Source of the DNA: Paenibacillus ihbetae
Lineage (GTDB): Bacteria; Bacillota; Bacilli; Paenibacillales; Paenibacillaceae
Assembly: GCF_002741055.1 (NCBI RefSeq)
Contig: NZ_CP016809.1
Location: forward strand, 930,001 to 994,000
Reading direction: 5' to 3'
DNA: 64,000 nucleotides
The position numbers and the translations under genes are program-made. Shown piece by piece: positions 34,060 through 39,958 of this stretch. A model generated the notes under the pieces. The model saw only the letters and a program-made list of their open reading frames with translations, ran no database searches and was not told the origin of the DNA. Position 1 is the first letter of the stretch. Every line of letters begins with the position of its first letter.

Positions 34060-34755
34060 TTATGACCAGACTTTATCCGGCCAATGCGCCTTATAGGGAA
34101 ATACCTTGGTGAAGTAGGGCACGATCTCCCGGGCCACTTCCTCTACTTCGAAGGTGCGGCCGGTGCAATCCTCCAGCGATGTCACGCCATACTCCTGAAT
34201 CCCGCATGGAATGATTCCCGTGAAGCCGGATTCGGCTATGCCTGCTTTAATGTTAAAGGCGAAGCCGTGGCTCGTGACAAATCCCCGGTCATGACGGCGC
34301 TTGTTGAATTTCACGCCGATCGCGCATATTTTGCGGTCGCCGACCCACACGCCCGTATACTCCGGCTTGCGGCCTGCTTCGATTTGATGCGCCGCCAAAT
34401 AATCAATGATGACTTGTTCCACGCTGCGAAGAAACCCGTGTAAATCGAGCCCCTTGCCGCCTTCCAGCACCAACAGCGGATACCCGACCAGCTGTCCGGG
34501 TCCATGATATGTAATATCCCCTCCGCGATCGATCTCGAACAGGCCAATGCCCTTCTTCTCCAGCTCTTCCTTGCTGAGCAGCAAATGCTCCGGATGACGC
34601 TGCGAGCCTATCGTATAGGTAGGCGGATGTTGGAGGAGCATCAGGCTTTCGTGACGCTCCCCTTTGTCGATTTCCACCACATGGAGCTTTTGCAGCTCCC
34701 AGGCCATGCCGTAATCGAGCATCGGCGTATACGAGACATTTAACGGTTTCGTCAT
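34060..34755 (-). CDS. lipB: Octanoyl-[ACP]:protein octanoyltransferase LipB
   Basis: Moves octanoate from acyl carrier protein to lipoyl domains, 231 aa. Signatures: GGDITYHGPGQLVGYPLL, ICAIGVK with the lysine, and GIIPCGI with the catalytic cysteine. Bacillus uses LipM/LipL for this job, so a LipB-type enzyme here is a family difference. Being just downstream of bkdB, whose product needs lipoate, fits the role. The ATG at 34755 follows GAAGGGTGAG. Confidence 0.92.
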   Translation of the reverse strand: MTKPLNVSYTPMLDYGMAWELQKLHVVEIDKGERHESLMLLQHPPTYTIGSQRHPEHLLLSKEELEKKGIGLFEIDRGGDITYHGPGQLVGYPLLVLEGGKGLDLHGFLRSVEQVIIDYLAAHQIEAGRKPEYTGVWVGDRKICAIGVKFNKRRHDRGFVTSHGFAFNIKAGIAESGFTGIIPCGIQEYGVTSLEDCTGRTFEVEEVAREIVPYFTKVFPYKAHWPDKVWS

Positions 34756-34815
34756 TGTGCTCACCCTTCTCTCCACTGGGGTCCGGCATCCGAAATGAAT
34801 GCCATGATCACAACA

Positions 34816-34837
34816 GCCCGTGAGCGTACGCACGGGC
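34816..34837. repeat. Hairpin between bkdB and lipB
   Basis: GCCCGTG pairs with CACGGGC around an 8-base loop. On the plus strand it is followed by ATTTTAC; on the minus strand no T-run follows, so read-through from bkdB to lipB remains possible. Confidence 0.6.
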
Positions 34838-34894
34838 ATTTTACAAAGTGTTACTCTGTCAATTATCAGGTCCTACCACCGGATCAGCTCCGGT

Positions 34895-36289
34895 TTAGTA
34901 TAGCTTCGTGTCCATGCTGAAGCCTTCGAGATTATCCTTCACCCGCTGCAGGAAGCGGCCGCAGATGACGCCGTCCAATATCCGGTGATCCAGTGACAGA
35001 CACAGGTTCGCCATGGAGCGGACTGCGATCATGTCATTGATCACGACCGGTTTCTTCACGATCGATTCGAACGTCAGAATCGCTGCCTGCGGATAGTTGA
35101 TAATCGGATAGGAAAGGATGGAGCCGAAGGAGCCCGTATTGTTGACCGTAAAAGTGCCGCCCTGCATGTCATCGAGCGTCAGCTTGCCTTCGCGGGTTTT
35201 GCGCGCAAGCTCGTCGATCTCTCTCGCAAGACCGGCGATATTCTTCTGGTCAGCGCGGTGGATGACCGGTGTAAGCACCGAATCCTCCGTACCCACGGCG
35301 AGCGACAGATTGATATCACGTTTAACGACGATTTTATCGACAGCCCAGAAGGAATTCATAATCGGGTAATCCTTTATCGCATTGACAACTGCCTTCAGCA
35401 GGAATGCCAGATAGGTGAGATTGACCCCTTCCTTCCGTTTGAATTCATCCTTCAGCTTGTTCCGCAGCAGGACGACGTTGGTGACATCCACCTCGATCAT
35501 GGTCCAGGCATGCGGGATTTCAGACACGCTTTGACGCATATTTCTTGCAATTGCATTACGAATCGGCGTAACATCAATAAAATATTCCGAGCGCCCGTTT
35601 TCCATACCTTCCACCTCGATGGTCGGAATCTTCGGCGTTTCGGTCAAATGAAGACCGGAATGACGCACATCCGGGATGGCTGTTCCAGGCGGCGGCGTCG
35701 GCGCGGCAGGCGTCTGGCGCTGCATGCCTTCAAACGGCGAAGGCGACTGTTGCGCCGTGGTCTGGGCTTCATTCGAGACCATGCCCGAGGCTCGGTTGGC
35801 GGCAGCAGCCGGCCGTCCCTGCCCGATATAGGCCAGAACGTCTTTACGGGTAATTCTGCCGCCCATTCCGGTACCTTGAACCTGGTTTAGATCTATCTGG
35901 TGCTCAGCCGCCAGGCTTTGGACTGCAGGAGAATACCGGTGACGCATGGATTCTCCCTCCGTTGAAACCGTACTGCTATGGGAAGCCTGTGCGGATAAGC
36001 CCGCAGGCTGGGCGGATGGCGTGCTTTCCGGAGCAGACGCGGTTGCGATCCGACATATAATTTCACCGACGTTCACCGTCTGTCCTTCCTGGGCCAACCA
36101 TTCACCCATTACGCCATCCATCGTCGACGGAATCTCGGCATTCACTTTATCCGTGATGACCTCGCAGATCGGTTCATACTGCTCGATCGGATCCCCCGGC
36201 TTCTTCAACCACTTGGCAATCGTTGCGGAAACTAGGGATTCCGCTAGCTGAGGCATCGCAACATCGGTCAATTTCTGTTTATCGGACAT
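34895..36289 (-). CDS. bkdB: Branched-chain 2-oxoacid dehydrogenase E2 (dihydrolipoyl acyltransferase)
   Basis: 464-aa core enzyme of the branched-chain 2-oxoacid dehydrogenase complex. Lipoyl domain at about residues 8-85 with lipoyl lysine K48 in VITDKVNAE. A linker leads to a peripheral subunit-binding domain (RYSPAVQSLAAEH ... GGRITRKDVL), a second Ala/Pro/Gln-rich linker, and a C-terminal catalytic domain with DHRILDG. The TDKVNAE sequence is typical of BkdB rather than PdhC. It produces the short branched acyl-CoAs used as fatty acid primers. Confidence 0.94.
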   Translation of the reverse strand: MSDKQKLTDVAMPQLAESLVSATIAKWLKKPGDPIEQYEPICEVITDKVNAEIPSTMDGVMGEWLAQEGQTVNVGEIICRIATASAPESTPSAQPAGLSAQASHSSTVSTEGESMRHRYSPAVQSLAAEHQIDLNQVQGTGMGGRITRKDVLAYIGQGRPAAAANRASGMVSNEAQTTAQQSPSPFEGMQRQTPAAPTPPPGTAIPDVRHSGLHLTETPKIPTIEVEGMENGRSEYFIDVTPIRNAIARNMRQSVSEIPHAWTMIEVDVTNVVLLRNKLKDEFKRKEGVNLTYLAFLLKAVVNAIKDYPIMNSFWAVDKIVVKRDINLSLAVGTEDSVLTPVIHRADQKNIAGLAREIDELARKTREGKLTLDDMQGGTFTVNNTGSFGSILSYPIINYPQAAILTFESIVKKPVVINDMIAVRSMANLCLSLDHRILDGVICGRFLQRVKDNLEGFSMDTKLY

Positions 36290-36307
36290 GCTCACAACTC
36301 CCTGTTC

Positions 36308-37294
36308 TTAGTAAAGCGCCAGCTGACGCATGGATTCTTTGACCTTATCTTTGTTCAGCATAAAAAACTTCTCCATCGGCGGACTAATCGGCATCGCCGG
36401 CACATCCGGTCCGCACAGGCGCATAATCGGCGCATCCAGATCGTACAAGCAGTGCTCGGCAATGATCGCCGCTACTTCAGCGCCGACACCGCCGGTTTTG
36501 TTGTCCTCATGCACGATCAGCACCTTCCCTGTCTGGCGGGCTGCATCTATGATCGCCTGCTGATCCAGCGGCTGCAGGGTGCGCAGATCGAGCACGTGGG
36601 CGGTGATGCCCTCTTCCTTCTCCAGCTCCTCAGCGGCCTGCATGACAAAATGCAGCGGCTGACTATAGCCGATCACCGTAATGTCGGCCCCTTCCCGAAG
36701 CAGGTTGGCCTTCCCGATCGGTACGACGTAATCGTCATCCGGAACCTCGCCCTTGATCAGCTTGTAGCACTTTTTGTTCTCGAAGAACAGGACCGGATCC
36801 GGATCGCGCACCGCCGCCTTCAGCAGTCCCTTCGCATCATACGCCGAGAAAGGGGCGACAATCTTAAGTCCCGGCGTCCCGACGAATATCGATTCCGGAC
36901 ACTGGGAATGGTACAGTCCGCCGAATATTCCCCCTCCGATCGGCGCACGGATAACCACCGGACAGCTCCAGTCGTTATTCGAGCGGTAACGGATCTTGGC
37001 AGCTTCACTGATGATCTGGTTGGTCGCCGGAAGCATAAAATCCGAATACTGCATCTCCGCAATCGGCTTCATGCCATACATGGCGGCCCCGATGGCTACG
37101 CCGGCGATCGCCGACTCCGAGAGCGGAGTATCCATTACGCGCATTTCTCCGAACTGCTCCATCAGGCCTTTCGTTGTGGTGAACACGCCGCCCTTTACGC
37201 CAACGTCCTCACCGAGGACGAATACGGCTTCATCCCGTTCCATCTCTTCCTTCATTGCAAGACGAATTGCATCAATATACTCCATTACCGCCAT
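36308..37294 (-). CDS. bkdAB: Branched-chain 2-oxoacid dehydrogenase E1 beta subunit
   Basis: 328 aa, transketolase-type pyrimidine-binding half of the E1 heterotetramer. Motifs: VFVLGEDVGVKGGVF, MDTPLSESAIAGVAIGAA with the catalytic glutamate and C-terminal HEDNKTGGVGAEVAA. Overlaps the end of bkdAA by 10 bases and is followed after 18 bases by bkdB, so it is part of one operon. Confidence 0.95.
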   Translation of the reverse strand: MAVMEYIDAIRLAMKEEMERDEAVFVLGEDVGVKGGVFTTTKGLMEQFGEMRVMDTPLSESAIAGVAIGAAMYGMKPIAEMQYSDFMLPATNQIISEAAKIRYRSNNDWSCPVVIRAPIGGGIFGGLYHSQCPESIFVGTPGLKIVAPFSAYDAKGLLKAAVRDPDPVLFFENKKCYKLIKGEVPDDDYVVPIGKANLLREGADITVIGYSQPLHFVMQAAEELEKEEGITAHVLDLRTLQPLDQQAIIDAARQTGKVLIVHEDNKTGGVGAEVAAIIAEHCLYDLDAPIMRLCGPDVPAMPISPPMEKFFMLNKDKVKESMRQLALY

Positions 37295-38325
37295 GCTTGA
37301 GCCCCTCCTTCATCACTGGCATATACGTGAAGAAGCGTATCTTCCGGCTTAGGAAACGGCGCATTGTCTGCGGATTCAGTCGCTTCTTTTATTTCCAGAT
37401 TCAATTGTGCGATCAGGTCCTGATCCCGCGTTTCGTCCCACAATCCGCAATCGATCAGATAATTCTTGAACCGGGCGACGCCATCCTTCTTCCAGTTCTC
37501 TTCGACCTCCTCTTTCGTACGATAAGCCAAATCATTATCGGAGGTGGAATGCGGGGACAGACGATACATCATCGATTCGATCAGCGTCGGCCCTTCGCCG
37601 CGGATGGCCCGCTCACGCGCTTCTTTGACCGCCGCATACACGGCGAGAGCATCATTGCCGTCTACCCGAATGCCCGGGAAGCCGTATCCCAGCGCCCGGT
37701 CGCTCACTTTGCCGCTGAGCTGCTTGTGAATCGGAACCGAAATCGCGTATTGGTTGTTCTCGCACATCAAAATGACCGGAAGCTTATGAACACCGGCAAA
37801 GTTGCAGCCCTCATGGAAATCTCCCTGGTTGCTCGAGCCTTCGCCGAACGTAACAAATGTCACAAAATCCTTCTTCTGCATCTTCGCCGCCAGCGCGATC
37901 CCTACTGCATGCGGAACCTGCGTTGTAACCGGGCTGGACCCTGTCACGATGCGCAGCCGCTTGCTCCCGAAATGCCCGGGCATTTGCCGGCCGCCGCTGT
38001 TCGGATCCTCCGCCTTCGCAAATGCCGACAGCATAAGCTCCCGAGGGGTCATACCGACAGCCATCACAAATCCGTAATCACGGTAGTATGGCAGGAAATA
38101 ATCCTTCTCCCTGTCGAGAGCAAAAGCCGCAGCGACCTGGCAAGCCTCCTGTCCGATCCCGGATACGTGAAAGTTAATTTTGCCGGCACGCTGCAGCAGC
38201 AGGTTGCGCTCATCGAACTTGCGCGCCAGCACCATATATTTGTACATGTCCAGAACCTGTCCGTCAGTAAGCCCAAGCTGTTCATGCCGATTGGTCTTTG
38301 AAGTCATCGTTTCTTGTTCTTTCAT
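37285..38325 (-). CDS. bkdAA: Branched-chain 2-oxoacid dehydrogenase E1 alpha subunit
   Basis: 346 aa, TPP-binding half of E1. The TPP motif appears as FGEGSSNQGDFHEG followed by CENNQYAIS, the form normal for branched-chain E1 alpha. The phosphorylation-loop-like region RLSPHSTSDND is also present. AAAGGAGGGATCTCC precedes the ATG. The leader holds a near-consensus FapR box, which would couple this operon to malonyl-CoA. Confidence 0.95.
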   Translation of the reverse strand: MKEQETMTSKTNRHEQLGLTDGQVLDMYKYMVLARKFDERNLLLQRAGKINFHVSGIGQEACQVAAAFALDREKDYFLPYYRDYGFVMAVGMTPRELMLSAFAKAEDPNSGGRQMPGHFGSKRLRIVTGSSPVTTQVPHAVGIALAAKMQKKDFVTFVTFGEGSSNQGDFHEGCNFAGVHKLPVILMCENNQYAISVPIHKQLSGKVSDRALGYGFPGIRVDGNDALAVYAAVKEARERAIRGEGPTLIESMMYRLSPHSTSDNDLAYRTKEEVEENWKKDGVARFKNYLIDCGLWDETRDQDLIAQLNLEIKEATESADNAPFPKPEDTLLHVYASDEGGAQAWR

Positions 38326-38406: not shown

Positions 38407-38423
38407 TTAAAACCTGGTACTAA
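38407..38423. promoter_or_regulatory. Candidate FapR operator in the bkdAA leader
   Basis: TTAAAACCTGGTACTAA matches the FapR consensus TTAGTACCTGGTACTAA at 15 of 17 positions. It lies about 10-25 bases downstream of the likely transcription start, which is where FapR sites often sit. FapR itself is not in this window. Binding is inference. Confidence 0.6.
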
Positions 38424-38439
38424 GACTTGGCTTAATGTT

Positions 38440-38468
38440 ATTATAATCCCTTTTTAACCAAAAAGAAA
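38440..38468 (-). promoter_or_regulatory. Probable promoter of bkdAA-bkdAB-bkdB
   Basis: Minus-strand TATAAT (38440-38445) with a weak -35 (TTTCTT, 17 bases away). It lies in the 173-base gap between lpd and bkdAA, so the dehydrogenase E1/E2 genes can be transcribed separately from lpd. Confidence 0.5.
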
Positions 38469-38498
38469 TGAGGGATTCCACAAAGGAAGCCTTAAGGC

Positions 38499-39920
38499 CT
38501 ATAAACCGATCGATTTTCCGTCCACGGCCAGCATCGCTTCGCCTATGATTTCCGACAAAGACGGGTGCGCATGAACCGCTGCTCCTACTTCCCAAGGCGT
38601 GGCATCCAGCACCTGCGCAAGGGCTGCTTCCCCGATCAGCTCCGTGACATGCGGACCGATCATATGAACGCCCAAAATATCCTGTGTCTCCTGGTCAGCA
38701 ATCACCTTAACAAAGCCTTCCTGCACCCCGTTGACCAGCGCCTTGCCGATCGCGGAGAAAGGAAACTTGCCGACCTTGACCGCATGTCCGCGCTCCCGGG
38801 CTTCCTTCTCCGTAAGGCCTACGCTGGCCGCCTCGGGACGGGAATAAATGCAGCGCGGGATCCACTCTTTGCGATAAGTCACCTGAGCCTCGCCGGCCAG
38901 ATGATTCACGGCAGTGATCCCCTCATGGCTGGCGGCATGTGCAAGCTGAAGACCCCCGATGCAGTCGCCGATCGCATAAATATGCGGTTCGGTCGTTTGC
39001 ATGTTCGCATTCACGGCAATCATTCCGTTCTCCACGCGGACATCGGTGTTCTCCAGGCCGATCTGATCGGTATTACCAATCCTTCCTACGGACATCAGAA
39101 GCTTATCCGCGGTCAGCACCCTGGTCTCGCCGTTATGCAGGGCCGTAACCGTAACGCTGCCTTCTTGAATCTCGCAGGTTTCGAGCAGCAGCTTGGCGTC
39201 CGTCAGGATGTCAACGCCCCTTCCGGCAAGCTGCTTTTTAAGCTCCCGCCCGATTTCTTCATCCTCTGCTGGCAAAAGCTGCGGCGCCGCCTCGATCACG
39301 GTGACGTTCACACCGAAATCATTCAGCATCGAAGCCCATTCCACGCCGATGACGCCGCCACCGACAATGAGGATGGATTCGGGAAGCTCCTCCAGCCGGA
39401 GCGCATGGTCGCTGGTCAGGATATGTACGCCGTCCGGCTCTAACCCGGGCAGATGGCGCGGTCTGGAGCCCGTGGCAATAATCAAATGGGTTGGAACGAC
39501 CGTCTCCATCTCGCCGTCCGGAAGCTCTACGGCGACCGCCCCGCTCCGCGGCGAGAAAATGGAAGGACCGATGACTCTCCCTTTTCCTTGGACCACGGTA
39601 ATTTTATTTTTCCGCATCAAATATTGAACGCCTTGATACAGTTTATCAACGATCCCTTCTTTGCGCTGCTGCACTTTGCCAAACGATAAACGGACGCCGT
39701 CCGCCTCGATGCCGTAGCGCTCGCTGTCCTTCATCTCTGCAAAAAGCTCGGCGCTCCGGAGCAAGGCTTTGCTCGGAATACAGCCGCGATGCAGGCAGGT
39801 TCCTCCCAGCTTGTCCTGTTCAATGATGACCACATTTTTTCCAAGCTGGGCCGCCCGGATGGCAGCAACATATCCTCCGGTCCCCCCGCCAAGTATCGCT
39901 ACATCACATGTAATTGCCAC
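38499..39920 (-). CDS. lpdV: Dihydrolipoyl dehydrogenase (E3)
   Basis: FAD enzyme that reoxidises lipoyl groups, 473 aa. It has the GGGTGGYVAAIRAAQLG dinucleotide fold, the redox pair in GGTCLHRGCIPSK, a second NAD fold GGGVIGVEWAS and the C-terminal HAHPSLSE with catalytic His and Glu. The GTG at 39920 follows GGAGG by 8 bases. Located upstream of bkdAA, it corresponds to the branched-chain lpdV/bkdE of B. subtilis. Confidence 0.94.
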   Translation of the reverse strand: MAITCDVAILGGGTGGYVAAIRAAQLGKNVVIIEQDKLGGTCLHRGCIPSKALLRSAELFAEMKDSERYGIEADGVRLSFGKVQQRKEGIVDKLYQGVQYLMRKNKITVVQGKGRVIGPSIFSPRSGAVAVELPDGEMETVVPTHLIIATGSRPRHLPGLEPDGVHILTSDHALRLEELPESILIVGGGVIGVEWASMLNDFGVNVTVIEAAPQLLPAEDEEIGRELKKQLAGRGVDILTDAKLLLETCEIQEGSVTVTALHNGETRVLTADKLLMSVGRIGNTDQIGLENTDVRVENGMIAVNANMQTTEPHIYAIGDCIGGLQLAHAASHEGITAVNHLAGEAQVTYRKEWIPRCIYSRPEAASVGLTEKEARERGHAVKVGKFPFSAIGKALVNGVQEGFVKVIADQETQDILGVHMIGPHVTELIGEAALAQVLDATPWEVGAAVHAHPSLSEIIGEAMLAVDGKSIGL

Positions 39921-39958
39921 AATCGGCACCTCCAACATAAGTCCAGTTATTCTCTATC

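Follow-up and report, generated by a model that had tools for sequence, protein, structure and literature searches.

The repressor FapR and the branched-chain 2-oxoacid dehydrogenase, Bkd, have been described as parts of separate systems (papers cited here by PMC number are drawn on in excerpt throughout). The listed fap regulon comprises fapR-plsX-fabD-fabG, fabHA-fabF, fabI, fabHB, yhfC and plsC (PMC4525379), its sites lie within promoters or just downstream of them (PMC5052256), and the B. subtilis operator, fapO, is printed as TTAGTATCAGGTACTAA (PMC7372789). In S. aureus two FapR dimers occupy one operator, with Kd values of 0.5 and 51 nM, and the repeat makes up half of the FapR footprint (PMC3536700), while in Exiguobacterium FapR failed to bind a fapR-promoter probe that reached no further than the palindrome (PMC5028935). 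B. subtilis bkd is laid out as ptb-bcd-buk-lpdV-bkdAA (PMC2743287), and the S. aureus BCKD transcript is reported to change with AhrC (PMC7392221). A B. subtilis study has the Bkd enzymes up 2.8- to 8.3-fold under one of its conditions (PMC7243436). Published FapR regulons, as these excerpts present them, consist of elongation and phospholipid steps, and bkd is ascribed to amino-acid regulators. Is there any report that links the two, or that links FapR to MbcS, which in S. aureus makes 2-methylbutyryl-CoA and isobutyryl-CoA for FabH (PMC10026030)? No FapR-bkd or FapR-mbcS link was found among the open-access papers listed, the excerpts being from PMC5052256, PMC3536700, PMC4525379, PMC4742526, PMC2743287, PMC7392221, PMC7243436, PMC10983992, PMC7372789, PMC5028935 and PMC10026030, the last of which, the S. 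aureus MbcS paper, has no mention of FapR; regulon databases, e.g., RegPrecise, may list one.

The window, i.e., the whole 64,000-nucleotide stretch that was analysed, is part of a single 6.59-Mb contig of a Paenibacillus-type genome. On its minus strand lpd, for dihydrolipoyl dehydrogenase (38499..39938), is followed by bkdAA, for the E1 alpha of a 2-oxoacid dehydrogenase (37285..38325; nearest named record Paenibacillus lactis, 99% identity), bkdAB, for E1 beta (36308..37294), bkdB, for an E2 acyltransferase with lipoyl and E3-binding domains (34895..36295), and lipB, for octanoyl transferase (34060..34839). Is the complex Bkd or pyruvate dehydrogenase? As far as sequence scores go, family models do not settle the matter: E1 alpha does not reach the cut-off of either pyruvate dehydrogenase E1 alpha model, E1 beta is above that of a subfamily model that bears the name of pyruvate dehydrogenase (336 versus 321 bits), and human BCKDH and a bacterial pyruvate dehydrogenase match E1 alpha equally well, at 234 bits each. 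Among solved structures the best match of E1 alpha, at 259 bits, is 1um9, a 2-oxo acid dehydrogenase from what we take to be a Thermus-type source. The assignment as Bkd comes from orthology: in genome G322 (locus L365) an E1 alpha 64% identical to that of the window stands behind lpd, buk, bcd and ptb (named by eye) together with a sigma-54 activator, which is the gene layout of B. subtilis bkd. In 76 of 80 named loci (two of the other four are short contigs) bkdB is followed by lipB in the same orientation, so that lipoylation may, through putative co-transcription of lipB, come under the same control as bkd.

Between lpd and bkdAA, at 38407..38423, pattern and matrix matches both locate a FapR-like operator, TTAAAACCTGGTACTAA on the plus strand and TTAGTACCAGGTTTTAA on the minus strand from which bkd is read. 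The preliminary description had counted 15 positions in agreement with the FapR operator that it quoted, and the count is right: there are two mismatches over the 17 bp, and against the printed B. subtilis fapO of PMC7372789 three of 17 positions differ. Within three mismatches of the quoted operator the window has no other place on either strand, and shuffling leads one to expect 0.03. With a matrix trained on 49 fapR-promoter sites, bkd sites excluded (48 sites in later scans), it scores 26.5 bits (16.5 in the reverse reading), and the next place in the 64 kb scores 6.54. The 17-mer begins 16 nt past a TATAAT (38440..38445, minus strand), which, in view of a TATAAT-like box that precedes the site in most aligned leaders, is the likely −10 element of a bkdAA promoter; the site is thus just downstream of it as had been claimed, a position which agrees with that of known fap sites. 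The same account placed the operator before the bkd operon, which holds for bkdAA and needs amending for the operon as a whole, as the promoter is internal and lpd is upstream of the operator, not behind it. No FapR-like site was found upstream of lpd itself, so that lpd would stay on, as would suit an E3 shared among complexes. A consensus promoter scan found no promoter at the bkdAA leader, i.e., there is no good −35 before bkdAA. A pyrimidine run, TTTCTTTTT (window 38446-38475), lies 5′ of the TATAAT in most genus leaders, at about the place where a −35 would be expected.

The reading that we prefer, with a probability of roughly 0.88 and with comparison of sequences as its ground, is that the promoter between lpd and bkdAA would have the 17-mer as its FapR operator, from which bkd would be repressed until malonyl-CoA brings release. 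What else could account for it? That bkd is mainly under CodY or a distant BkdR and sigma-54, the FapR site being a minor or decayed input, seems unlikely to us, though it is the strongest of the other explanations. Such control is known for B. subtilis bkd (PMC4525379, PMC2743287), and the genome encodes RpoN, which makes sigma-54 control elsewhere possible. However, the bkdAA leader has its TATAAT and is without the −24/−12 signature GG-N10-GC, of which one instance was found in the 322 nt upstream of lpd. That no bkdR stands next to these genes had been remarked before, and the search bears it out: at E 1e-10 neither the window nor 80 Paenibacillus-type loci (13 kb at most) yielded a homologue of bkdR, ptb, bcd or buk, so that in this order bkd is separate both from BkdR and from the genes that are its partners in catabolism. 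This is quite a contrast to 50 loci outside the order, of which 36 have a homologue of the sigma-54 activator, 45 one of bcd, 19 one of ptb and 18 one of buk. CodY may add to FapR at bkd.

Decay is also hard to reconcile with how well the site has been kept. The order referred to here is that of the window's genome, and the named genomes and the 100 genomes of the genus are sets that share species. All 80 named genomes have the site before bkdAA, 79 of them with two mismatches within 260 bp, and the remaining one (L073) 281 bp upstream; every one of 382 control windows of 260 bp has at least five mismatches. In matrix terms the bkd site ranks first in each of the 80 named loci, most of them of 13 kb, the lowest bkd score being 21.98 bits and the highest elsewhere 17.66. 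Within the genus, bkdAA was found at E 1e-100 or better in 98 of 100 genomes, the two without it being 71-72% complete, and the site is upstream of bkdAA in all 98. For 31 of these the evidence is from loci L087-L116 and L300, for 43 from the 44 loci L310-L353 (three mismatches in 13 of the 44, two in the others), for nine from L157-L161, L163, L168, L172 and L173, and for 15 from pattern rows compared by eye; in one genome, G029, the bkd site, TTAGTACCTGGTTATAG, is outside the fixed pattern. A two-mismatch site was present in 44 of 44 further loci (L146-L189), which include genus genomes already counted. A looser pattern gave one to seven matches per genome in the 100 genus genomes, palindromes counted twice, and a reversed-pattern control gave any match in nine of the 100. 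On a contig of one genus genome (G064, C1 1048573-1052221; L328, L329) two equal-scoring E1 alpha matches lie about 2.6 kb apart, each with an upstream site, and represent either a duplication or an assembly artefact. A plasmid search with the leader gave nothing useful.

Beyond the genus, 55 of 58 loci from other genera and families of the order (L190-L247) have the site, 54 within four mismatches and one (L242) within five at a similar place; L217, L219 and L241 are without it. Genome G220 has a five-mismatch site only, and the second E1 alpha copies of G128 and G195 (L248, L249) have none. Conservation that is specific to the site can be seen in 45 genus representatives, where, location by operator similarity favouring the site somewhat, eight of its 17 positions are invariant, an argument against a decayed input, and of the 28 columns that start at the third base beyond it 27 hold less than 0.25 bits. 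Comparison of relatives, which the preliminary description had proposed, thus finds the 17-mer kept and its 3′ surroundings not; loss of the 17-mer with retention of the promoter, named there as the outcome adverse to its proposal, is the opposite of what came out. The position-by-position conservation of the bkd and fapR sites is similar (Pearson 0.79, Spearman 0.63). Persistence across nearly the whole order suggests that starter supply is tied directly to malonyl-CoA.

Which protein reads the site? One FapR is encoded in the window's genome (277 bits, cut-off 183), and its own gene is preceded by TTAGTACCAGGTTCTAA, which differs from the bkd site by one base. In that genome a third site, TTAGTACCAAGTCCTAA, is 44 bases before an open reading frame that passes FabH models. 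Two further matches there, L004 and L005, were rejected as targets, L005 having three mismatches and the 17-mer of L004 recurring, among the matches listed, only in G030. The L004 sequence, TTAGAACCTAGTACTAA (G000 C1 3624773), is near the start of an oxidoreductase-like open reading frame; among the matches listed it occurs only in the window's genome and in G030 (C1 283667), a near twin of that genome. In a hand-read alignment with S. aureus FapR (4a0x) the base-contacting Q41 and R56 are identical in the genome's own FapR, the phosphate-contacting K10 and R13 are kept, and R110, G111 and L132, where mutants of S. aureus FapR are impaired in malonyl-CoA binding, are identical as well. Likeness of motif alone cannot name a protein, and another transcription factor with the same motif, e.g., a branched-chain or lipid regulator, could in principle be the reader. 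We regard that as improbable. Across the genus the motif precedes fapR and fabH, known FapR targets, as well as bkdAA, and over 55 genomes of the order, three of them of the genus, the site follows FapR: FapR was found in 52, the bkd site is in 51 of these 52 and in none of the three without FapR (Fisher p 1.5e-4, a value resting on those three genomes), and this ties the site to FapR, not just to bkd. The FapR-less genomes (G208, G213 and G216, of families f3, f8 and f11) have no bkd site, their best matches in the stretches examined around bkdAA having at least six mismatches. On the side of another factor, these three may have lost further regulators too, and one genome, G210, has FapR and nothing better than six mismatches in 6.1 kb around and upstream of bkdAA (C1 105500-111600, L298).

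The conservation in front of bkdAA is not confined to the 17-mer, CAAGT at −6 to −2 and a T at −12 before it being conserved also. When a symmetrised matrix was applied at every offset in the bkd leaders of the 45 genus representatives, there was a peak at −13, with a mean of −0.8 versus −22.5 in shuffled flanks (z 16; the next, −6, had z 7.3); in fapR leaders the highest offset was +13 (z 8.6), followed by −12 (6.0) and −13 (5.9). As the shuffles ignore relatedness, it is the offset and not the z value that is the evidence. The conserved flank probably fits, by this profile, a weak site for a second FapR dimer 13 bp upstream, which in the window would be ATTAAGCCAAGTCTTAG (38420..38436, minus strand).

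Could the conserved leader be an RNA element instead of a DNA operator? Being downstream of the −10 it would be transcribed, and the CAAGT of the flank is conserved too; we nonetheless think this very improbable, as the palindrome is common to the unrelated leaders of fapR, fabH and mbcS and, before mbcS, is upstream of the −10 (by eye) and so would be left untranscribed. The mbcS gene itself was found at E 1e-150 or better in 56 of 149 genomes of the order, 24 of them above the model cut-off, and at that threshold there is none in the window's genome. A perfect palindrome precedes an MbcS homologue in G018 and G022 (836 and 830 bits, cut-off 850; L412, L413), and in G009 a site is about 60 bases before mbcS. 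Thirty of the 56 mbcS leaders were covered (L414-L443), and 28 of the 30 have a site of at least 14 bits 61-73 bases before the matched start; since 21 of the 30 are from one genus (g7), they are not independent. L442 has 12.7 bits at the usual place and L424 has no site. In controls, four of 2278 tiles of 400 bp reach 14 bits and 21 of 3000 shuffled leaders reach 12. That chance, or the shared ancestry of close relatives, explains the bkd site is hardly credible: the nearest relatives do share most of the leader, but the control windows, the first rank of the site in every named locus, and its retention in the 45 genus representatives where nearly all similarity 3′ of it has been lost all go against it.

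Outside the order the picture is sporadic. Of 51 genomes of the class 33 have sites with the exact pattern, and by eye none of these sites is closer than 10 kb to the E1 alpha gene. When 3.1-9.1 kb upstream of E1 alpha was scanned with the matrix in each of 56 class genomes, 11 had at least 14 bits, and in six of the 56 the site is at the bkd operon promoter: L382, L391 and L392 (genus g97), L386 (25.5 bits), L389 and L398, i.e., four genera outside the order, some with the site beside a sigma-54 activator. A fourth g97 genome, L390, has no site, and in L382 the site precedes the −10 instead of following it. The matches in L365, L370, L372, L375 and L388 were set aside as being in coding sequence, or taken to be: in family f26 a 17.8-bit match near bkd is inside a buk-like reading frame in L365, the identical 17-mer is at a like distance in L370, L372 and L375, and an 11.2-bit version in L371, L373 and L374 was also taken to be at the L365 place; the 18.0-bit match of L388 is in the start of lpd.

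How would FapR control of bkd operate? A FapR dimer would bind the 17-mer and a second would probably bind the weaker one, which is 13 bp closer to the −10; bound FapR would then cover the start of transcription and block bkdAA-bkdAB-bkdB and perhaps lipB. Malonyl-CoA, on binding FapR, would release it from the DNA, and with the promoter so freed branched acyl-CoA primers would be made when the extender is abundant. FapR would, in this order, take the place that BkdR and sigma-54 have in other Bacilli. A wider proposal, one to which we lean with a good deal less assurance than to the operator itself, is that FapR would hold FabH, Bkd and, where present, MbcS, that bkd would have moved from catabolism to membrane synthesis with a double operator, and that the sites elsewhere would have been acquired independently. 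With FapR over FabH and both primer sources, malonyl-CoA would set the supply of primers and their use; if Bkd and MbcS too are under FapR, starter and extender units would be matched in one step. The balance of branched and straight chains in the membrane should then answer predictably to inhibitors of fatty-acid synthesis, and a catabolic operon would have been moved into a biosynthetic regulon.

What this would amount to is a new target set for a regulator that is already known, as opposed to a system of a new kind, and an earlier prediction of it may exist. In comparison with the fap regulon of B. subtilis and S. aureus, there is here likewise a 17-bp inverted repeat in or just after a promoter, a FapR with the same contact residues, and sites before its targets fapR and fabH; the difference is that bkd, which is absent from the regulon as listed in the excerpt of PMC4525379, here has a FapR-like site. 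In comparison with B. subtilis bkd, which is under BkdR, sigma-L and CodY, the E1 alpha is orthologous, whereas here bkdR, ptb, bcd and buk are not nearby, a TATAAT promoter is between lpd and bkdAA, and the promoter has its FapR-like site. In S. aureus two routes, Bkd and MbcS, provide FabH with branched primers (PMC10026030), as in the relatives considered here.
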